A stretch of DNA of 64,000 nucleotides from Pseudorhodoplanes sinuspersici (GTDB lineage Bacteria; Pseudomonadota; Alphaproteobacteria; Rhizobiales; Xanthobacteraceae). The notes under the pieces are model-generated. The model worked only from the letters and a program-made list of their open reading frames with translations. It had not been told where the DNA came from and ran no database searches. Of this stretch, positions 42,162 to 52,344 are shown piece after piece. Location: assembly GCF_002119765.1 (NCBI RefSeq), contig NZ_CP021112.1, forward strand, positions 1,544,501 to 1,608,500. The letters run 5' to 3'. The position numbers and the translations under genes are program-made. How positions within the stretch are numbered: position 1 is the first letter of the stretch; each line of letters opens with the position of its first letter.

Positions 42162-43472
42162 CTACTCTTCGCGAAATGCGCGCATAATTTGATCTCTGAA
42201 TGGCTTGATAAGATACGAGATGACGGTCCGCTCGTCAGTCTGAATGAAGGCTTCGGCTGGCATCCCGGGAACAAGCGTCAGCTTGGCAAGACGTGACAGT
42301 TCCTCGGCAGAAACTGTGATGCGAACCAGATAATGGGAAACGCCAGTGCGCTGATCCTGCGTCAGATCGGCAGCAATATGATTGACGCTCCCGTTCAGTT
42401 CCGGAGTGGTTCGTTGGTTAAAGGCTGACAACCTCACAACGACCGGCTGGCCGAGTTGTATCTGATCGATGTCCTGCGGCAGGATTTGAGATTCCAGCGC
42501 AAGTTTGTCCCGCTCTGGCACGATCAGCATGATCGTGTCGGCGGCCGAGACGACACCACCGATGGTGTGAACATTCAGCTCATGCACCACGCCATCTTGC
42601 GGCGCAATAATATCGATGCGCTTGAGCTGGTCTTCCGCGGAAGCCTTGCGCTCGACATATTCCGCGATCTGTCCTTCGACTTCGCGTAGTCCGCTCGCCA
42701 CTTCACTACGCAGGTCTTGATCAATCTGAAGGATCTGAAGCCGTGTTTCGGATATTTTTCCTGCCGATTGCGCTTGCGCCTCGATCAAGCGCCCACGATC
42801 ACCATCCAGGTTAGCTGCTTCGCGCTCCAAAGCCATCATTCGCTGGATCGACACAAGACCTTTCTGGAAGAGCTCGCGCAGGCCCTTCAATTCACTCTCG
42901 ATCAAAGAGATCGTTCGTACTCTTGCTTCTTCCTGTGCCGCAAGACCACGGACCTCCTTTTCATATTGCACAATGCGCTCACGGATCTGCGCCTTCTGGC
43001 CGGAGCGAGCTTCGCGGCGCAACTCGAACAACTTGCGCTCACCCGCGATAAGCTGTGCGATTTCCGGCTCACCGACGCGCGATGCCAGTTTGGCTGGAAA
43101 GGCGATACCCTCTGCATCGTCGCGCTCAGCCTCAAGTCGCGCCTTTCGGGCAGCGAACTCATCCAGCCTTTTGGTGACCATGGCCAAATTGGCGCGCGTC
43201 TGAGTAGCGTCGAGACGCATCACGACTTTACCGGCGGTCACTCGCTGTCCGTTACGCACCGCAATTTCACCGACCACTCCGCCAGTTGGATGCTGAACCT
43301 TTTTGACATTGGAATCGACGACGAAATGCCCCGTCGCGACCACAGCGCCGGCAATATTGGTGGCAGCCGACCATCCACCAATTCCCACGACGAGAAATAA
43401 GCTCGCGAGGCCGGCAACAACCAGATGGCGCCGAATGGAGAGCGAGACGATAGCAACATCAGTGTTTGGCAT
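42162..43472 (-). CDS. Type I secretion periplasmic adaptor (HlyD/PrtE/HasE-like)
   Basis: A 436-residue membrane-fusion protein linking the ABC exporter to an outer-membrane tunnel. The ATG at 43470-43472 gives an N-terminal transmembrane helix (residues about 19-40). Then follow a biotinyl-lipoyl-like half (HPTGGVVGEIAVRNGQRVTAGKVVMRLD), a long coiled coil (about 95-290) and the returning half ending in IIAPQDGVVHELNVHTIGGVV. It overlaps the ABC gene by 14 bases. Orthology with HasE is inferred from the neighbours. No TolC-type gene is in the window. Confidence 0.9.
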   Translation of the reverse strand: MPNTDVAIVSLSIRRHLVVAGLASLFLVVGIGGWSAATNIAGAVVATGHFVVDSNVKKVQHPTGGVVGEIAVRNGQRVTAGKVVMRLDATQTRANLAMVTKRLDEFAARKARLEAERDDAEGIAFPAKLASRVGEPEIAQLIAGERKLFELRREARSGQKAQIRERIVQYEKEVRGLAAQEEARVRTISLIESELKGLRELFQKGLVSIQRMMALEREAANLDGDRGRLIEAQAQSAGKISETRLQILQIDQDLRSEVASGLREVEGQIAEYVERKASAEDQLKRIDIIAPQDGVVHELNVHTIGGVVSAADTIMLIVPERDKLALESQILPQDIDQIQLGQPVVVRLSAFNQRTTPELNGSVNHIAADLTQDQRTGVSHYLVRITVSAEELSRLAKLTLVPGMPAEAFIQTDERTVISYLIKPFRDQIMRAFREE

Positions 43473-45297
43473 CTTCTTGATCGGCCTGTTCGCTGACACC
43501 TGATTCGCTCGCTGGATTGGCGATGACACGCAGCGGGGACAAGCTTCGCGCCGAAGCTGAATAGCCCTGGGTCGTGCTGCCGTTTGGAGGTTGTTGATTC
43601 GGCTTCCTGAGGACTCGGGACAAAACTTCATCGCGCGGTCCGAATGCCTTCGCGCGCCCACTCTCCATTGCCAGAACCAGATCGACCACACCAAGCGCGC
43701 TTGGACGGTGGGCAATGACAACGACTATACCCTTACGCTCCCGTACCGAGGCTATTGCTCTGACAACGCCGGCCTCTCCTTCCGAGTCGAGGTTAGCGTT
43801 CGGTTCGTCGAGAATGACAAGGAACGGATCGCCGTAGAGCGCGCGGGCAAGACCAATACGCTGGCGCTGACCGGCCGAGAGAGCCGACCCTCCTTCCCCA
43901 ATAGACGTTTCGTAGCCTCTCTCGAAACGAAGAATGAGATCATGTGCTCCGGCCGCCTTGGCGGCAGCGACAACACTTTCGGCGGGAGCATCCGGAGCAA
44001 ACCGCGCAATATTCTCGCCGATCGTGCCATCAAAGAGCTCAATCCCTTGCGGCAGATAACCGATATGCCGGCCAAGGCCTTCCCGATCCCATTGTTCGAA
44101 GCTTGCTCCGTCAATCCGCACTTTTCCGTTTACGGGCTTCCACACACCGACAAGCGCTCGAGCAAGTGTCGATTTTCCGCTGCCACTCGGACCGATAATG
44201 CCGAGCGCGCTGCCCGCAGAAATAGCAAAGCTGACCGCTGTTACTGTCGGCTTTTTCTCACCTGGCGGCACAATCGTGACGGCCTCGGCGCGCAGGTCAC
44301 GCTCTGGTTTTGGAAGCGCAATCGCATTGTCTGCCTCTGGGAGCAAGATCAGTAGTTCCTTTAACCTCGCCCAGCTCTGACGCGCCATCAGAAATGGCTT
44401 CCAGGTTGCGATAGCCAGATCCACCGGAGCAAGCGCTCGTCCCATCATGATCGAACTTGCAATCATCACTCCCGCGCTTGTTTCTTGCTCGATGACCAGA
44501 TAGGCGCCGACGCCGAGGATCGCGGACTGGAGCATCATGCGCAGCGATTTTGAGGCGCCGCCAAACCCACCCGCGACGTCACCAGCGCGGCGATGCGAGA
44601 TCAGGTAATTCGAGTTCGCCTTTTGCCAGCGTTCGGCCATTTGATTGCCGAGGCCCATCGCGCGCACGATTTCAGCATTACGGCGGCCAGCGTCCATGAG
44701 GGCGTTGCGGCGCATCCCATACCTGATCGTGTCGCTTGCCGGGCCTCGGGAGAGCGCGTTCGTAATGAAGGTGAGCGACACGAGCATGATCGCACCGATC
44801 AGAGCCGTCATGCCGATCCAGAAATGAAACAGAAAGCAGATAGCAAGATAGAGAGGCATCCAAGGCAAGTCGAAAAAGGCCGCGGGCCCCTGCCCTGACA
44901 AGAAGCCGCGCACATTGTCGAGGTCACGTAGCGGCTGCAGCCCATCTCCCGGCATGCGGGTCTCAAGCGGCAGGCGAATCACGACCTCATGCACGCGGTC
45001 AGATAACTGGCGATCGAATTTCTCACCAATTCGGACGAGTACGCGCGAACGAATAACATCGAGCGTGGCCTGGAATGCATAAAGTCCCGCCGCCAGGACC
45101 GCGAGCCCGACCAACGTCGAGAGGCTGCGGCTTGCCAGCACACGGTCATAGACCTGCAACATGAACAGAGGCGAGGTCAGCGCCAGGACATTGACCAAAC
45201 CACTGATCAAAGCCAGTCCGAAAATCACTGGCCTAAAAAGCGACATGACCGTCGCAGCCTCAGGCTGCGACGGTGTCCGCTGTGAAATTTGCGGCAC
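43459..45297 (-). CDS. Type I secretion ABC transporter, permease/ATPase (PrtD/HasD-like)
   Basis: A 612-residue inner-membrane exporter half-transporter. An N-terminal transmembrane domain (about residues 18-310, starting PVIFGLALISGLVNVLALTS) is followed by an ATPase domain with Walker A GPSGSGKSTLARAL, signature LSAGQRQRIGLARAL and Walker B LVILDEPNANLD. No N-terminal C39 peptidase is present, so substrates have uncleaved C-terminal signals, consistent with the two hemophores encoded just upstream. Start GTG 45297, or ATG at 45246. It begins 12 bases after the first hemophore stop. Confidence 0.92.
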   Translation of the reverse strand: MPQISQRTPSQPEAATVMSLFRPVIFGLALISGLVNVLALTSPLFMLQVYDRVLASRSLSTLVGLAVLAAGLYAFQATLDVIRSRVLVRIGEKFDRQLSDRVHEVVIRLPLETRMPGDGLQPLRDLDNVRGFLSGQGPAAFFDLPWMPLYLAICFLFHFWIGMTALIGAIMLVSLTFITNALSRGPASDTIRYGMRRNALMDAGRRNAEIVRAMGLGNQMAERWQKANSNYLISHRRAGDVAGGFGGASKSLRMMLQSAILGVGAYLVIEQETSAGVMIASSIMMGRALAPVDLAIATWKPFLMARQSWARLKELLILLPEADNAIALPKPERDLRAEAVTIVPPGEKKPTVTAVSFAISAGSALGIIGPSGSGKSTLARALVGVWKPVNGKVRIDGASFEQWDREGLGRHIGYLPQGIELFDGTIGENIARFAPDAPAESVVAAAKAAGAHDLILRFERGYETSIGEGGSALSAGQRQRIGLARALYGDPFLVILDEPNANLDSEGEAGVVRAIASVRERKGIVVVIAHRPSALGVVDLVLAMESGRAKAFGPRDEVLSRVLRKPNQQPPNGSTTQGYSASARSLSPLRVIANPASESGVSEQADQEDAKH

Positions 45298-45309: not shown

Positions 45310-46068
45310 TCAAGCCAGAATGTTCCCGCAGAGAATCAAGTTCACAATGTCGGTTCCGACATAACCGTTCAATTGCAGGGTATTGTCCCCATCGGTGATG
45401 GTCAGGACGTTGGCGCTATCCCACCAGTTACTGTGGTTGAAGAAAAGATCGATATAACCATCGATATTCGTTACCGCCTGAAGATCGATGATGTCATCAT
45501 TCCCAACGTCTGTACCGAAATCCAGAATGACGTCATTGCTCCATCCGTCGGCAAAGACAAAAGTGTCGTTGCCGAGGGCACCGGTGAATTCGTCATTCCC
45601 AGCAAAGCTCAGCATGACATCATCGCCCGCGGTGCCGAACTGCTCTGTTCCTTGTTCAGCAAAATAGGCGTAGAGGGCATCCAGGCTGCCGTTCTGGGAC
45701 AGGTCCGTGATCGCCGTCGAGAATGCCGGCGTCAGTGTGGCTTCACTGAAATCGACGCGCAGGCCTTCGTCCTGGACCCACCGGTCGCTGCCCTGGACAT
45801 ACCGAAGATTACTGCCCAGCTCCAACGTATCGACATCACCATCGACGACGCCAGACGTGTAACTGAAGTCATTCCCGTTGACGATGACCGACGATTTGTC
45901 GTTGTTGCCGGCGCCAACCGGAATCGGTGTACCTGAAATCCATTGATCCGAAGCATCCAACACCGAGTTGAACCAACCATTACCGCGATACGTGAAGCCA
46001 TCGGCCCAGCTCTCCAGAAACGCCGGAAGGTTGCTGCTTGCAGCCGTGTAATTGAGTGCGAGTGCCAT
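45310..46068 (-). CDS. hasA: HasA-like hemophore with RTX-like C-terminal region (paralog 1)
   Basis: A 252-residue secreted haem-binding protein without N-terminal signal peptide. The ATG at 46068 (matching the paralog start MALxLN) is preferred to one two codons upstream. Residues 1-135 match the HasA fold: NGWFNSVLDASDQW, SVIVNGNDFSYTSG, VDTLELGSNLRYVQG. The Tyr in FSYT fits the haem-ligand Tyr of HasA; the second His ligand position is not obvious. Residues ~140-252 resemble the serralysin C-terminal region (FAGNDEFTGALGNDTFVF, then ITDGDNTLQLNGYVG) and end NLILCGNILA, a modified type I secretion tail. Confidence 0.82.
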   Translation of the reverse strand: MALALNYTAASSNLPAFLESWADGFTYRGNGWFNSVLDASDQWISGTPIPVGAGNNDKSSVIVNGNDFSYTSGVVDGDVDTLELGSNLRYVQGSDRWVQDEGLRVDFSEATLTPAFSTAITDLSQNGSLDALYAYFAEQGTEQFGTAGDDVMLSFAGNDEFTGALGNDTFVFADGWSNDVILDFGTDVGNDDIIDLQAVTNIDGYIDLFFNHSNWWDSANVLTITDGDNTLQLNGYVGTDIVNLILCGNILA

Positions 46069-46140
46069 CTTCATAATCCTTGAATTGTCTCTGCCGCACG
46101 GCAGGTATCAGTGAAATTGAAATCGATGTCGGCGCTGTCT

Positions 46141-46164
46141 CCGCCGCAGCAAATGCCGCGGCGG
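46141..46164 (-). promoter_or_regulatory. Intercistronic hairpin between the two hemophore genes
   Basis: CCGCCGC(A)GCAAATGC(C)GCGGCGG forms a strong stem-loop in the 120-base gap on the has transcript. No T-run follows. It could stabilise the upstream hasA mRNA or reduce read-through, giving more hemophore than exporter (inference). Confidence 0.6.
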
Positions 46165-46188
46165 AACCATATGAATGTGTCTGACGCT

Positions 46189-46980
46189 TTATGCGAAGAT
46201 GAGATCGTTCTGATCCAGCGTGCCGGAACCGAAGAAGTTCACTTCGATCGTGCTGCTGTTGGTGCCGTCGAAATAAGTGATGACATTTCCGGCAATGCTG
46301 CCGCCGGCGTTGGTGAAGTCGGTGTAGCTGCTCCATCCGAAGCCAGTGATCGAAATGACGTCGTTGCCGTCAACGAAATCAGTGATTACGTCGTCACCCC
46401 AGCCATTCGCGTAGAATTCCTCGTCCCAACTGAATAGATCGAAGTCGCTGGCACCGCCGCCACCATTCATGACGTCGTCGCCGGCAAAACTCATTAACGT
46501 GTCGCTGCCGCTCGTACCATTTTGAACCGTGCCCTGCTCGGCAAAATAGTCGTACAGACCTGCGAATGACTGGCCGAAAACAGTCGCTCCGTGTAACTGG
46601 CCGCCATGCGAAAGCGTGTAGATTGCCTGCGAGAAGGCCGTTGTTTGCGTTGCATTGGTGAAATCAATGAGCAGACCTTCGTCCTGGACCCAGACGTCGT
46701 TGACGTAGTCGTATTCAAGATTGCTGCCGAGCTCCAGCGTGTCGACGTCGCCGCTGAAGGCGCCGGGCGAATAGCTGTAATTTGAGCCATTCATGATGGC
46801 CGATGACTTGCCGTTGGGCACTCCCCCGGTGTCGACGCCAGCGACGAATTGATCGACGCCGGTCCATGAGTCATTGAACCAGCCATTGCCGTTATAGGTG
46901 AAGTTGCTCGGATTGGAGTAGTTGGCGAAAAACGCCGGCAGATCGCTGCTGGTCGCGGTGAGATTAAGTTCCAAAGCCAT
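46189..46980 (-). CDS. hasA: HasA-like hemophore with RTX-like C-terminal region (paralog 2)
   Basis: A 263-residue secreted protein, closely related to its neighbour. Ribosome-binding site AGGAG lies 8 bases before the ATG. The HasA-like half shows NGWFNDSWTGVDQFVAG, SSAIMNGSNYSYSPG and VDTLELGSNLEYDYV. A Gly/Asp-rich bridge (LMSFAGDDVMNGGGGASDFD) leads to a C-terminal region ending LDQNDLIFA, a good uncleaved type I secretion tail. It is the first hemophore after the receptor gene. Residue-level haem ligation needs modelling; HasA-type Tyr is present. Confidence 0.84.
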   Translation of the reverse strand: MALELNLTATSSDLPAFFANYSNPSNFTYNGNGWFNDSWTGVDQFVAGVDTGGVPNGKSSAIMNGSNYSYSPGAFSGDVDTLELGSNLEYDYVNDVWVQDEGLLIDFTNATQTTAFSQAIYTLSHGGQLHGATVFGQSFAGLYDYFAEQGTVQNGTSGSDTLMSFAGDDVMNGGGGASDFDLFSWDEEFYANGWGDDVITDFVDGNDVISITGFGWSSYTDFTNAGGSIAGNVITYFDGTNSSTIEVNFFGSGTLDQNDLIFA

Positions 46981-47111: not shown

Positions 47112-50100
47112 TCAGAACCGATAGTTCAAACCGACCTTGATCGTGTGCAGATTGATCGCATTCGCGGCATTGCGGCCGGTCATGGCATCGTACGAGCCTG
47201 GGAAAACGGTCGTGATTGCGCGCGGAGGAACGCAAACCGGCGGCCGACAAATTGTCGTTGTCGAATAGGTCCTGCTCACACCCTGACGGGCGTTCGGGAA
47301 GAGAAAATCCTCTTCACCAAATCCGGTGTAAGCATATTCGCCCTTTACGGACCAATTCGCGTTGATCGCATATTCCGCGCCGCCTCCCACCGTCCAGCCG
47401 GTTCGTGTTTTCTCCGCAAACTCCGTGAAGGACAGGCTGGCGATTGATTGAGATGAATTGGCCGTATCTGATCGGTACTGATCTCGCCACTGCTTCTCTT
47501 TCAAGAAAGCAAGACCACCGGTGCCATAGACAAACCAGCGGTCGAAGGCGTAGCCGAGCCGCCCCCGGATTGTGGCCATCCAGTCGAATTCATATTCTGT
47601 CTTCGATGCCAGATTGCGGCGGGTCGCAAAGGCGGTCTCGGTCGCGAGGACCTCCCGAAATGCACTCAACCGCGTCCTGCTGTAGTCGGCCTCGATACCG
47701 ACGACCAACCGGTTGTCGAACTGGTAGTTGATTCCGATCTGGCCGCCGGCAAGAATATTCTTAATATTCATATCTACGGATTCGGCCGCAGCGATGCCGT
47801 TCGCACTCCCATTCGCCAGTGTGGTCACGCCGTTGAGCGACGCGAAGCCCTGACCGACATGGCCGCCGACGTAAAGGCCGGTCCAGTCAGCACCCGGCAC
47901 CGCATTCGGATTGCGATTGAACAGCCAACCGGCCGGCCAAGGAGCCGAGTTACCGAACTTTCCGGTCAGGCTTGCGCGGATCGTACGCCCGGGGGCAGGC
48001 ATATCGGTGTTGTTGAGCGCATCGACGTAATAGCGATTGAGAAGATTCTCAGCGCTCACATCCAACGTGAAGCTGTCGTTGATCTTCCATTGCACGAAGG
48101 CGTCAACGAGCGAATAAGGCTCCCACGACTTGGTGATGATGCCGACTTGTTTCGAATAATTGTCTTCCAAGACTGACGCTGCACGACTGCCCATGTAGGT
48201 GTAGCGACCGCCGATGGTCAGCTTCTCATCGAAAAAGCGCAGGCCGGCGGTGGCAGAGGCGGAGAATCTGGGCGGGATCTGGTTGGCGATATAATCAGCC
48301 TGCTCCGTGGCGCTCGTGCAGGTCGCCGCGGTCCTGCACAGCTCAATGTCGGTGTAATAGTTGAACGCATAATCGAGGAAGGCTTTTTTGACGTCGTAGC
48401 CGCCGGACAGCTCGAAGCCTTTCATTACGACCTTGTCGTAGTTGAAAAGGATCAGGTAACTGTCTGAAGGATTGGTGCTGTTCCAGCGTCGGCCGATATA
48501 ATTCGCCGTTGTGTTGTCAAAGTACACGAACTTCAGGCGCGCGTTGTCGCCGGCCAGAAACACGTCATTCTTGAGAACGTTCGTACCGAATTCCCAATTG
48601 CGGGCGTTCTCCGCGATGATGTTCGGATTGTAGCGAAGCCCGGATGCGTTCCAGGTCGATTCGCGCAGACTGGGCGGTCGGATCCCAGTGGTGTATTTCG
48701 CAAAAAGTTGCCAGCCCGTGAGCGGCGTTACGGTAACACCAAAATTCGGACTTACCCCCGACCCTTCATAGGGTGCGTATGGCGGCCCGGGATAGCTCCA
48801 AACCGGCGTAGCGCGGTTCTCGACATTGTAATCCAAGTAGGTGACGCCGGAATCCAGGGTGAGCCAAGGCAACAGATTCCATTGGCCATTCACAAAAAGA
48901 GTGCTGACCCGGCGCGTACCATCGGGTGAAATGCTGCGTTCAAATCCCTGGAAGTCGGTTGAGAGCCGATAATCGGACTCCGCGTCCTCCAGCTTGGCTG
49001 AGCCCCCGTAACGTAAGGAAAACGGCCTGGAAGCGAGATCGAAACGCGAGGTGTTCGATACTTCGAAGCCGTAACTTTTGCTCTTTGCGCCAATGCCCGT
49101 CTGGATCACACCCGCTATCGAGGCTACTTCGTCTGTGCCCGACATCCATGCATTGGCCTTTAGGTCGATCAGATTGTTGTCCGCCGGCTTGAAGTGATAG
49201 CGCGCAGTGAACTGATCGACGGCCGCTGTACTGAGCTTGAGCTGTGCCCGCGTGAAGACGCTCGAACCGGCTAACACGGTCGGCAGCACTTCCCCAAACT
49301 TGTTCTCGTAGCGCATATAGCCAAGCTGCAGCTCATGACCGTCAGCTGGCCGCAACGTCGCTTTCAGCAGCGCGGAACTGGAATTCTGGGATGTGTTGAA
49401 GACCTCGTCGCCATACTTGAATGGCGAGAGCGCCTTGGTGCCACCGCGGAAATTGTCCGTGTAAAGAGGGCCGTGAGTGCCAGCAAAGTAATTCCCGGCA
49501 ATGCGCCGAACGTAGGCGCCCACGAGATCGATGTTCGGCTGCGTCACGGCAAATGCCGCGCTGCCAGTTCTGTTGCTGAAGTTAAAGTCCGAAGGTGGAC
49601 CGGGGGTTGGCGTTGTGGCGCCAATTCGGGGCTCTATCCCGTTGGAGCTCACGCTGGTCTTGAGGCGAACACCATAAGTGTCGCCAGGTTTTAAGATGTC
49701 GGCAGGCTTCAACGTTTCAATGGCGACAGTGCCGCCGATTGCTCCCGCCGAACCATCGTTGGGTCCTTTTGTGATCGTCACGCCGCTGATCAGGTCAGGA
49801 TCGACATAGCTCCGGTTGTCGACACCGGAATAGCCACGATAACTGGACGTTGATTGCTCTGAACCATCGATCGTCGTGGCAACGCGGTTCATACCTTGCA
49901 GACCGCGGATATTCGGATCGATAGCCGCCCCATTGCGGTTCATGCCGGAGATGACACCGGGCGTACCTTGAAATATGTCGCCGGCTGAACGCCCGGGAAA
50001 TCGCTGAATCGCTTCTTCGGAGATGTAGCTAACCGACCCTGGCGTCTGATAAGGCACGTCTGCAAGAGGAGTGCGCCCGCCTGACACGTTGATCACGTCG

Positions 50101-50477
50101 AGCTGAATCGCACCATCGACTGTGCTTTGGGCATTTGCGTCCAATCCCGGCTTCGAAATCGTAACGGTCGTGGCGTTTGTAAACGAGTAGGTCAGACCGC
50201 TGCCGGCAAGCAACCGGCTCAAGGCTTCGGTTTGACTAAACGAGCCCTGCACGCCGGGCGAATTGAGGCCTCGGACCAGATTGGCACTGAAGAACAGTTG
50301 AATTCCGGTAACGCCCGAAAACTGAATGAGCGCCTGCGACAAAGGCTGCGGCTGAATGTTGAACGAAGCCAGCGCAGCCAATCGCGACTGCGCAAATGCA
50401 GGAGATCCGCTCGTTGAAATTACGAGCAGCGCTGTGCTGGTTAGAAGAGCAATAGCCAGCTCACGCTTCTTCCGCAT
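47112..50477 (-). CDS. hasR: HasR-like TonB-dependent haem receptor fused to an Omp25-like barrel
   Basis: A 1121-residue outer-membrane protein. The ATG at 50475-50477 begins a signal peptide (KKRELAIALLTSTALLV). In order: an STN signalling domain (about 40-110, FNIQPQPLSQALIQFSG), a plug domain (about 130-265, SVSYISEEAIQRFPGRSAGD, GLQGMNRVATTIDGSEQS), a 22-strand-type barrel to ~840 ending ENLLNRYYVDALNNTD and IRASLTGKFG, then a linker and a second, Omp25/RopB-type porin-like barrel (about 861-1121) from ADWTGLYVGGHVGQGFA to VGLNYRF. The STN domain fits the sigma/FecR genes upstream. Starts at 50528 or 50537 are possible. Confidence 0.88.
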   Translation of the reverse strand: MRKKRELAIALLTSTALLVISTSGSPAFAQSRLAALASFNIQPQPLSQALIQFSGVTGIQLFFSANLVRGLNSPGVQGSFSQTEALSRLLAGSGLTYSFTNATTVTISKPGLDANAQSTVDGAIQLDVINVSGGRTPLADVPYQTPGSVSYISEEAIQRFPGRSAGDIFQGTPGVISGMNRNGAAIDPNIRGLQGMNRVATTIDGSEQSTSSYRGYSGVDNRSYVDPDLISGVTITKGPNDGSAGAIGGTVAIETLKPADILKPGDTYGVRLKTSVSSNGIEPRIGATTPTPGPPSDFNFSNRTGSAAFAVTQPNIDLVGAYVRRIAGNYFAGTHGPLYTDNFRGGTKALSPFKYGDEVFNTSQNSSSALLKATLRPADGHELQLGYMRYENKFGEVLPTVLAGSSVFTRAQLKLSTAAVDQFTARYHFKPADNNLIDLKANAWMSGTDEVASIAGVIQTGIGAKSKSYGFEVSNTSRFDLASRPFSLRYGGSAKLEDAESDYRLSTDFQGFERSISPDGTRRVSTLFVNGQWNLLPWLTLDSGVTYLDYNVENRATPVWSYPGPPYAPYEGSGVSPNFGVTVTPLTGWQLFAKYTTGIRPPSLRESTWNASGLRYNPNIIAENARNWEFGTNVLKNDVFLAGDNARLKFVYFDNTTANYIGRRWNSTNPSDSYLILFNYDKVVMKGFELSGGYDVKKAFLDYAFNYYTDIELCRTAATCTSATEQADYIANQIPPRFSASATAGLRFFDEKLTIGGRYTYMGSRAASVLEDNYSKQVGIITKSWEPYSLVDAFVQWKINDSFTLDVSAENLLNRYYVDALNNTDMPAPGRTIRASLTGKFGNSAPWPAGWLFNRNPNAVPGADWTGLYVGGHVGQGFASLNGVTTLANGSANGIAAAESVDMNIKNILAGGQIGINYQFDNRLVVGIEADYSRTRLSAFREVLATETAFATRRNLASKTEYEFDWMATIRGRLGYAFDRWFVYGTGGLAFLKEKQWRDQYRSDTANSSQSIASLSFTEFAEKTRTGWTVGGGAEYAINANWSVKGEYAYTGFGEEDFLFPNARQGVSRTYSTTTICRPPVCVPPRAITTVFPGSYDAMTGRNAANAINLHTIKVGLNYRF

Positions 50478-50661
50478 CCCAGCACGCTTGCATGCTGGAA
50501 TGCACTCGTTTACTCGATCGCCACCCATCGGCCTCACCCACTGAATCCCGCAAACGACGGGACCACGAAGGGCGATGTGATGACGCCCTCACTGGGACTG
50601 ACACCCAGGAGAGATGAAGCAATGATCGCAATGAGGATTATTTTATAAGTTTAGATTGTCA

Positions 50662-51594
50662 CTAAACTGAGTAAACGAAGGAGACATATTTCGTAGCGTG
50701 CAGGATTCGGATCGGAAGCGTATCCGCGATCGTTTGCAGCGCCTCTTCAGGCTGTTTGGTACTGAAAATCGCTGTTACCGGAATGTCGCCAATGCTTTTG
50801 CTCGTAAGAATAATGCGACCTTGGCGATAACGCTCAAGCTCGGTCAACACGCGGCGAAGAGGCACGTCCTGAAATACAATCCGATCCTGGCGCCACGCTT
50901 CGATGGATCCAAGATCTACGCGCGTGACGTTGCCTAGTCCACTTTTGCTGTAACTAAGCTGCCACCCTTGCTCAATCTTCGCAGGCGAAGAGGCTCCGAC
51001 ACGGACCATCACAGCATGCTCGCTAGCTGTAACCGTGACCAAATCACCAACATATTTCACATTGAATTTTGTGCCGAGCGCATGCGTCGTGCCGCCTGCA
51101 GCATTAACAGAAAATGGTCGTTTCGAAGCAGCCGCAACATCGAAGAAGCCCTCGCCCCGATGCAACTCGAATTGACGTGAAGTCTCTGTGAAATTGCTCG
51201 AAAGGGCTGAGTAGCTCCCGAGCTCAATCAGGCTGCCATCTGCGAGGGTCCATGTCCGCCGCTCGCCAATATCGGTCACAAAGTCGGCAAATAAATCGCT
51301 TCGGCTGATGGCATAAAGACCGCCAGTGCCAACCAGCGCCGCGCCCCCTCCAAGGAGCAGATTGCGTCGATTCAAAAATTTCTGTGAATTTCGGATGCTT
51401 TCGATCTCGGGCTGAACGATATCAAAACGCTTCCAGAACGCTTGAGCATGCTCCCACGCCGCAACGTGGGCTTCAGACTGATCGAACCACGTCTGAAATG
51501 CACGACGAACCTCTTCGCCCGCTTTATCGTCGCGCAGGCGAACGAGCCATTCCAGAGCCTCGATCACAAGCGGATCTGTTGTTTCTTTCCCCAT
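50662..51594 (-). CDS. FecR-family anti-sigma/signal transducer
   Basis: A 310-residue inner-membrane regulator that relays receptor occupancy to the ECF sigma factor. The cytoplasmic N-terminal segment (DUF4880-like: ALEWLVRLRDDKAGEEVRRAFQTWFDQSEAHVAAWEHAQAFW) binds the sigma factor. One transmembrane helix at about 78-98 (LLLGGGAALVGTGGLYAI) follows. The periplasmic FecR domain has RTWTLADGSLIELGSYSALS and the C-terminal STN-like domain receives the receptor signal. It lies between the sigma gene and hasR, all in one direction. Confidence 0.92.
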   Translation of the reverse strand: MGKETTDPLVIEALEWLVRLRDDKAGEEVRRAFQTWFDQSEAHVAAWEHAQAFWKRFDIVQPEIESIRNSQKFLNRRNLLLGGGAALVGTGGLYAISRSDLFADFVTDIGERRTWTLADGSLIELGSYSALSSNFTETSRQFELHRGEGFFDVAAASKRPFSVNAAGGTTHALGTKFNVKYVGDLVTVTASEHAVMVRVGASSPAKIEQGWQLSYSKSGLGNVTRVDLGSIEAWRQDRIVFQDVPLRRVLTELERYRQGRIILTSKSIGDIPVTAIFSTKQPEEALQTIADTLPIRILHATKYVSFVYSV

Positions 51595-51703: not shown

Positions 51704-52210
51704 CTAATTTCGTTCAAGGCGCTGATGGAGATCAGCCAAAGCGCTGACAATCTGCGAAATAACCGTGTTGCGGGAGACCCCTTGGCGAACCGCGATTTCG
51801 TCGTAGCTTAACCCCTCGAATTTGTTGAGAACGAAGGCTTCCCGGCGCCGACGGGGAAGACCCGCGACCGCCTTCAATACGCGTCGCAACTCACACCGAA
51901 AAATCACTGCCACCTCTGGAGATGGGCGCGGATCCGCGATGGTGTCGACATCGTCCGCAGAAAGATCGACTTCCGACCGGCGGGACACGTTACGCAGATG
52001 ATTGAGAGCGAGATTTCGAGCGGTACATGTGAGATAGGCCGGACAGTTGACAAGATTGCTGCACTCGACGCTCGCCATCAGGTTGAGGAATGCCTGATGG
52101 ACGACATCTTCCGCAGTGGCCTTGTTGCCGACGAGGCGTCGGACAAGCTTTTTCAGTCGCCCCTGCTCGGATGCATATAGACTTGCCAAATCAATCGTTC
52201 GGGCACGCAT
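51704..52210 (-). CDS. ECF sigma factor, FecI-like
   Basis: A 168-residue extracytoplasmic-function sigma factor. ATG 52208-52210 is chosen over a TTG at 52234. Region 2 (LVRRLVGNKATAEDVVHQAFLNLM) and region 4 (LPRRRREAFVLNKFEGLSYDEIAVRQGVSRNTVISQIVSALADL) are clear. With FecR and the STN-containing receptor it forms the cell-surface signalling cascade that should induce the haem-uptake genes. No Fur/Irr box could be identified with confidence upstream. Confidence 0.9.
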   Translation of the reverse strand: MRARTIDLASLYASEQGRLKKLVRRLVGNKATAEDVVHQAFLNLMASVECSNLVNCPAYLTCTARNLALNHLRNVSRRSEVDLSADDVDTIADPRPSPEVAVIFRCELRRVLKAVAGLPRRRREAFVLNKFEGLSYDEIAVRQGVSRNTVISQIVSALADLHQRLERN

Positions 52211-52344
52211 GACTTTGCTCGATACGATCCCCAAACGATTGATGGATAAAAGACGGCCACCGTTCGCGAGATCAACGCCGAACTAGTATCGGATGCCGGA
52301 TACGCCTTCAAATACAATGATTTTGACTTGCTCTAAGATGCGGC

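Follow-up and report, generated by a model that had tools for sequence, protein, structure and literature searches.

The stretch of DNA analyzed here (the window; 64,000 bp, positions 1,544,501 to 1,608,500 of contig NZ_CP021112.1 of Pseudorhodoplanes sinuspersici) encodes on its reverse strand a TonB-dependent receptor whose chain continues, beyond its own β-barrel, into a second, smaller outer membrane barrel. The genes listed in Table 1 are codirectional, in the order FecI, FecR, receptor, two HasA-like proteins, type I ABC transporter, and HlyD adaptor (Table 1). A preliminary description of the locus had read a signal peptide, an STN domain, a plug, a receptor barrel, and a second barrel in one uninterrupted frame, and this layout was confirmed: the frame is free of stops, and four Pfam domains within it score above their cutoffs. 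The last of these, OMP_b-brl (PF13505), matched residues 882 to 1141 at 51.6 bits (gathering cutoff, 28.7) and covered profile positions 16 to 175 of 175; the same family was matched at an E value of 0.001 or better by all 24 fused small barrels tested. The sequence strings singled out earlier were all located in the chain. IRASLTGKFG closes the receptor barrel at F861, the small barrel starts at W885 with ADWTGLYVGGHVGQGFA, and VGLNYRF forms both the C terminus of the chain and the terminal signal of the small barrel. Each of the two barrels in the window chain has separately retained a terminal β-signal.

An AlphaFold2 model built from 53 aligned rows reached a mean predicted local distance difference test score (pLDDT) of 84.1 and a predicted template modeling score of 0.70. 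Known TonB receptors have 22 receptor strands; in the model of the window protein, the receptor part was followed by a linker of low confidence (block means of 70 and 54) and then by eight long strands of 18 to 24 residues (block means of 72 to 94), with an extra hairpin in the last outer loop of the small barrel. Judging from this strand count and the family match, the small barrel is probably closed. Sequence and model agreed on two sets of strands and two terminal signals, and both support the earlier claim of two barrels in one polypeptide. The top fold match of the model in Foldseek was HasR (E value, 3.6e-42). Compared by sequence with solved structures, the small barrel itself yielded only weak matches to TodX (E values of 0.15 to 0.16).

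The fusion is no assembly error, because a second fused chain is present on the same chromosome (C1:961193-964840) and 29 of the 391 family genomes searched contain in-frame fusions, at 47 places in total. These counts were obtained with a small-barrel profile scored on at most six first-look candidates per genome, so that a free copy could have escaped. The 47 places scored 237 to 390 bits, and the next match scored 149 bits; at an E value of 1e-20, the profile touched 331 of the 391 genomes, the matches at or below 149 bits being ordinary small barrels. All 47 strong places sit in frame behind receptor sequence, and among the 48 genome/barrel pairs in 30 genomes (including genome G955 of the order sample), none lacked a receptor part. 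At 43 of the strong places the frame measured 1,136 to 1,294 aa, while the remaining four were truncated or frame-shifted (G242, 885 aa; G131, 322 aa, at the edge of a contig; G082, 450 aa; G180, 700 aa). Searches with a profile of the receptor end plus the small barrel, for which at most three first-look candidates were scored per genome, matched 34 of the 391 family genomes at an E value of 1e-40, with fused and unfused chains pooled. By profile, no fused chain was found in seven other sampled genomes of Pseudorhodoplanes; the order sample (397 genomes) contributed one more fused genome, G955, and the class sample (385 genomes) none beyond the window's own.

A search for related loci returned 23, seven of which matched the full query (Azorhizobium, Enterovirga, two metagenome-assembled genomes of Afipia, and three Rhodopseudomonas); a Croceibacterium locus matched most of the query with a broken frame, and the other 15 matched the receptor part only. 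Fused chains were also found on plasmids of Ancylobacter (1,097 aa), Pseudochrobactrum (1,217 aa), and Ketogulonicigenium (1,198 aa). Each of these is one coding sequence in RefSeq, annotated merely as "TonB-dependent receptor," and each is preceded by genes for a sigma factor and for a FecR or DUF4880 protein. A Novosphingobium plasmid record contains an unannotated frame of 1,187 aa with the same four Pfam domains. The named fused members span the Hyphomicrobiales, Rhodobacterales, and Sphingomonadales. Fusions of a receptor with an Omp25-type barrel thus occur elsewhere, conserved in several species with an intact frame. An assembly or annotation join near position 47930, which had been named as a possible source of the double barrel, can be dismissed with near certainty given the second copy on the same chromosome and the many independent assemblies; the window itself lies inside a single contig of 5.97 Mb. 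Downstream of the paralogue in the same genome (L039:3399-5933), pieces resembling a transposase or integrase and a sigma-factor-like frame were seen by appearance, suggesting local rearrangement.

To place the fused barrels, a tree was calculated from 48 fused small barrels and 37 free-standing ones; the latter needed at least 40 bits against a model made from four fused chains. Eight rows shorter than 160 aa were excluded, as was the L133 chain. In this tree, the fused barrels formed one side of a branch with a support of 100/99, and their nearest outside group consisted of L036, L037, and L038. One member of this sister group, L037:1291-3438 (+), carries its OMP_b-brl barrel together with an OprB porin in a single frame of 716 aa. 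The receptors behaved differently: in a tree of 105 rows, fused and unfused receptors were intermixed, with six changes between the two states. Two rows counted as "alone" in this tree were frame-shifted pieces: L125 derives from a fused gene, and L110 is not followed by a small barrel. In a set of 47 rows (LG+G4 model), for which rows and group were chosen after inspection of the larger tree, the fused receptors needed five changes, three of them forced by starred branches, and forcing them into one clade cost 690 log-likelihood units (P value of 0.002 in the approximately unbiased test). On these trees, the fused receptors belong to at least three lineages and their small barrels to one clade. 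This pattern may reflect either repeated transfer of the module between receptors or one early fusion with repeated loss. A test on the small-barrel tree neither rejected receptor clades A and C as single clades nor showed them to be such. No barrel gene standing alone beside an unfused receptor, the expected trace of a fission, was detected by a profile of free-standing barrels (threshold, 25 bits) at loci many of which offered only ∼1.5 kb of flank; the sole nonreceptor match was a multibarrel chain in L133. An apparent loss was seen at L110:15876-18504 (+), where a second receptor adjoins a fused one: it is 74 to 75% identical to the L127 receptor, its frame is shifted, and no small barrel was found.

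Compared over 47 fused and 37 free-standing sequences, the two kinds of small barrel share the strand pattern, the glycine ladder, and the terminal signal. Fourteen residues are conserved at 0.89 or more in the fused barrels and at 0.32 or less in the free-standing ones: G903, T906, G910, E919, E967, R1018, Q1020, Y1021, E1039, F1080, A1083, G1086, G1121, and R1122. According to the model strands and the usual topology of such barrels, the residues enriched in the fused barrels would lie mostly at the outer ends and in the loops. For a controlled comparison, a joint alignment was used with a conservation threshold of 0.85, and the loops together with seven outer residues per strand (134 positions) were counted as the outer end. 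Of 40 free-standing barrels fetched, 36 had an open frame and 34 contained the start motif; thinning at 75% identity left 25. These controls had a mean pairwise identity of 0.40, and 33 of 46 fused barrels had one of 0.43. The fused set had 50 conserved columns, 14 of them outer, compared with 40 columns and three outer ones (G927, G1074, and P1113 in window numbering) in the controls. Hold-out chains kept 14 of 14 (Pseudochrobactrum), 13 of 14 (Novosphingobium), and 10 of 14 (Ketogulonicigenium) of the tip residues at overall identities to the window of 0.45, 0.40, and 0.32, respectively; the Ancylobacter chain also kept all 14 but, being identical to a training row, was not counted as a hold-out. 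Compared with ordinary OMP_b-brl or Omp25/RopB-type barrels, the fused barrels are thus set apart as a separate clade with a fixed outer end, found only as fusions among the candidates scored in the 391 genomes.

The fixed tip bears on three simple explanations of the module. The small barrel could serve as an anchor or as an assembly or stability module that holds the receptor in the membrane, steers it through Bam, or fixes its neighbors, its tip residues stabilizing the barrel. The separate β-signal on each barrel and the presence of other multibarrel chains in this family's genomes agree with such a role. Against it, the positions invariant in fused barrels but not in free-standing ones are mostly outer, a feature that a simple anchor would not require, and unfused sister receptors manage without the module; we regard the anchoring function suggested in the preliminary description as a rival reading that is rather unlikely. 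Alternatively, the small barrel might cover the receptor mouth against phages, bacteriocins, and other receptor-targeting agents and have no role in uptake. Its predicted surface exposure and its repeated gain or loss among receptors would suit an arms race; since such a race predicts variable loops, yet many loop positions are fixed, a shield appears to be a poor candidate. Equally improbable is a neutral history in which two genes became joined by ancient read-through and the resulting tail was tolerated. OMP_b-brl fusions are not rare in these genomes, as the OprB fusion in the sister group illustrates, but a merely tolerated tail sits badly with occurrence in three orders, frames of at least 1,136 aa at 43 of 47 places, a linker of 18 to 28 residues throughout 44 aligned fused chains, and a fixed tip.

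Among solved structures, the best sequence match of the receptor part was HasR (profile E value, 4.8e-123; profile positions 53 to 310 and 341 to 876). The STN domain, plug, and barrel of HasR from Serratia marcescens (3csl/3ddr) are homologous to the window receptor over nearly the full length. The window chain differs from HasR in having a second barrel after the receptor barrel and in lacking counterparts of H189 and H603. In HasR, these two residues, at the plug apex and in loop 7, respectively, are the heme ligands. In the H189 column, histidine was present in none of the 51 rows with a letter (2 of 53 were gapped), and an adjacent tyrosine, Y236 in the window, was present in all 51. The loop-7 segment between the RPP and NPNL motifs, corresponding to the H603 region, contained histidine in 2 of 53 rows (L127 and L128), with none in the window. 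A search for conserved histidines (columns of at least 40%) found none in the receptor part except one insertion column (11 of 22 lettered rows), which is missing in the window; in the small barrel, a column at 893 had histidine in 19 of 44 rows. The insertion histidine belongs to one receptor subgroup, L040 (SYAHVYQN segment) and close relatives, and may be a heme ligand there. Since the chain has the outline of HasR but not its defining heme histidines, we do not class it as HasR. The cutoff of the heme/hemoglobin receptor model TIGR01785 (316.85) was passed by all four chains tested, three of them narrowly (window, 323.5; own paralogue, 325.3; L040, 317.8), whereas L127 scored 379.3.

The setting of the window gene is HasR-like as well, in that hemophore-like and type I secretion genes adjoin the receptor. 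With a profile of five HasA-like sequences, the N-terminal half matched the HasA chain 4xzd (1.7e-06) and the C-terminal half matched RTX proteins; a single-sequence search with the protein encoded at 46189-46980 found no HasA match, and Pfam likewise gave none. Its AlphaFold2 model was poor (pLDDT, 57.7), below use for a fold search. The tandem pair at 45310-46980 (−), with C-terminal halves like RTX calcium-binding repeats, is a combination unmatched by Pfam and NCBIfam models. A scan for promoters and terminators gave nothing above shuffled sequence.

Neighbors were counted for the 42 of 46 fused chains whose flanks extended 2.5 kb or more upstream and 5 kb or more downstream. FecI and FecR genes, an extracytoplasmic function (ECF) sigma and anti-sigma pair that is a further HasR-like trait of the window, lay upstream in 39 of these 42 loci. 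Within 8 kb, genes were found for heme oxygenase in 10 loci, ExbB in 7, TonB in 9, and HasA-like proteins in 4 (one of them weak, 3e-05); 15 loci had any of these, and the majority had no such neighbor. Heme oxygenase genes were also near 5 of 10 unfused relatives inspected. On plasmid pB of Ancylobacter polymorphus (L261), the fused receptor is close to repABC and opposite an fhuF/fhuB siderophore cluster. As a general partner of the fused receptors, a hemophore is a weak candidate with HasA-like matches near only 4 of 42 loci, and the earlier suggestion that the small barrel retains a hemophore is weakened to the same extent. The designation as a heme receptor fared better in part: HasR homology, TIGR01785, the hemophore-like neighbors, and heme oxygenase near 10 of 42 loci speak for it, and the unconserved H189 and H603 against it, leaving heme as the best guess for the substrate.

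Table 1. Features of the fused receptor gene and its neighbors (positions in the window)
Feature	Position	Strand	Basis or remark
Complete fused open reading frame, 1,141 aa from GTG	47112..50537	−	Frame without internal stop; likely start is ATG at 50477 (residue 21)
Signal peptide, residues 21-50, ending in AFAQ	50388..50477	−	Read from the sequence by eye
STN signaling domain, residues 79-129	50151..50303	−	Pfam PF07660, above cutoff
TonB plug, residues 164-270	49728..50048	−	Pfam PF07715, above cutoff
Receptor β-barrel, approximately residues 288-861, own β-signal LTGKF last	47955..49676	−	Pfam PF00593 (435-832, above cutoff), AlphaFold2 strands, HasR alignment
Linker, residues 862-884 (23 residues)	47886..47954	−	AlphaFold2 model and alignment
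C-terminal 8-strand OMP_b-brl barrel, residues 885-1141, outer end conserved	47115..47885	−	Pfam, AlphaFold2 model, and alignment
FecI-like ECF sigma factor	51704..52234	−	Pfam PF04542 and PF08281, NCBIfam
FecR-type anti-sigma factor/signal transducer	50662..51594	−	Pfam PF04773
HasA-like secreted protein, C-terminal half RTX-type	46189..46980	−	Five-sequence profile
Second HasA-like protein, sharing 48% identity with the first	45310..46074	−	Five-sequence profile
Type I secretion ABC transporter, PrtD type	43459..45297	−	TIGR01842, 766.9 bits
Type I periplasmic adaptor, HlyD family	42162..43721	−	TIGR01843, 401.7 bits, residues 103-519; true start probably after the listed TTG

Taken together, we tentatively favor, as the best reading of these sequences, a role of the small barrel as a covalent surface co-receptor on a heme-type receptor that signals through FecI and FecR. 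The end of the receptor barrel and the start of the small barrel would both lie on the periplasmic side, placing the two barrels side by side in the outer membrane with the tip of the small barrel facing outward beside the receptor mouth. There, working as a covalently attached co-receptor, the tip may capture the substrate (heme, a hemophore, or a hemoprotein) or set its orientation, or it may dock on receptor loops as a gate. In the window, cargo could come via the two HasA-like proteins, exported through the adjoining type I system, and bound substrate would then be signaled via STN, FecR, and FecI. A fixed face, predicted to point outward by the receptor mouth and recurring across receptor lineages, is more in keeping with a co-receptor or docking element than with a plain anchor or a neutral tail. 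A bolder version, which we consider doubtful, is that of a mobile co-receptor cassette: a single lineage of 8-strand barrels, found only C-terminally on TonB receptors, would have been passed among at least three HasR-like lineages, its fixed surface site replacing the lost heme histidines or docking a common partner.

Several observations weigh against a co-receptor. A few residues enriched in fused barrels are off the tip (Y938, N942 [periplasmic turn], W986, and F1011), histidine does not occur among the 14 tip residues, and these 14 were chosen after the alignment had been seen. Common ancestry of a single clade explains part of the tip conservation, though the diversity of the controls was similar. 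The heme histidines of HasR are absent from nearly all rows, so heme itself is uncertain as the substrate, and the Ancylobacter plasmid copy adjoins oppositely oriented hydroxamate-siderophore genes (fhuF/fhuB and a siderophore receptor). Finally, many close receptors with this FecI/FecR arrangement lack a small barrel. Because these unfused relatives share that arrangement, and no free-standing small-barrel neighbor was seen in the loci examined, the module is dispensable for the receptor system as such.

The preliminary description had also considered two barrels in one chain unusual for the Bam machinery, which holds only partly, as other multibarrel chains occur in genomes of the same family and the class is already in print. 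Single frames of ∼1,000 to 1,100 aa with three OMP_b-brl matches each were found at L195:1548-4676 (+), L196:1497-4793 (−), and L133:12906-15977 (−); L195 and L196 each also contain, as judged by eye, another stretch resembling a barrel between these matches. In the genome of the window itself, L007:1303-2838 (+) is a frame of 511 aa in which an OMP_b-brl domain is followed by ∼260 residues resembling an outer membrane domain without a Pfam match. The abstract of the publication on multibarrel proteins reportedly emphasizes eight-strand combinations. As portrayed in later papers, these published multibarrel outer membrane proteins share more than one barrel per chain with the window protein (Solan et al. 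2021, PNAS, as cited in PMC8592465 and PMC11494523), and by that account the fusion of a receptor with a small barrel is a variant of the published class. A term search of a 2024 review of TonB transporters (PMC11658791) found no mention of second or fused barrels, and a literature search, with subscription papers mostly outside its reach, found no paper recognizable as describing a fusion of a receptor with an 8-strand barrel.

The fusion nonetheless invites comparison with known transporters in another respect. Receptors such as TbpA, HpuB, and BtuB are served by surface lipoprotein helpers (TbpB, HpuA, and BtuG, respectively). The helper in these pairs is a lipoprotein, whereas in the window protein it would be a covalently attached barrel. 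If the co-receptor reading is true, a receptor with a covalent surface-helper barrel would represent a solution unlike the lipoprotein helpers of known transporters. The chain would also be a natural test case for Bam, which would have to fold two barrels of very different sizes out of one polypeptide. The fixed tip names specific residues to probe, and the naturally occurring fused and unfused sister receptors provide built-in controls.

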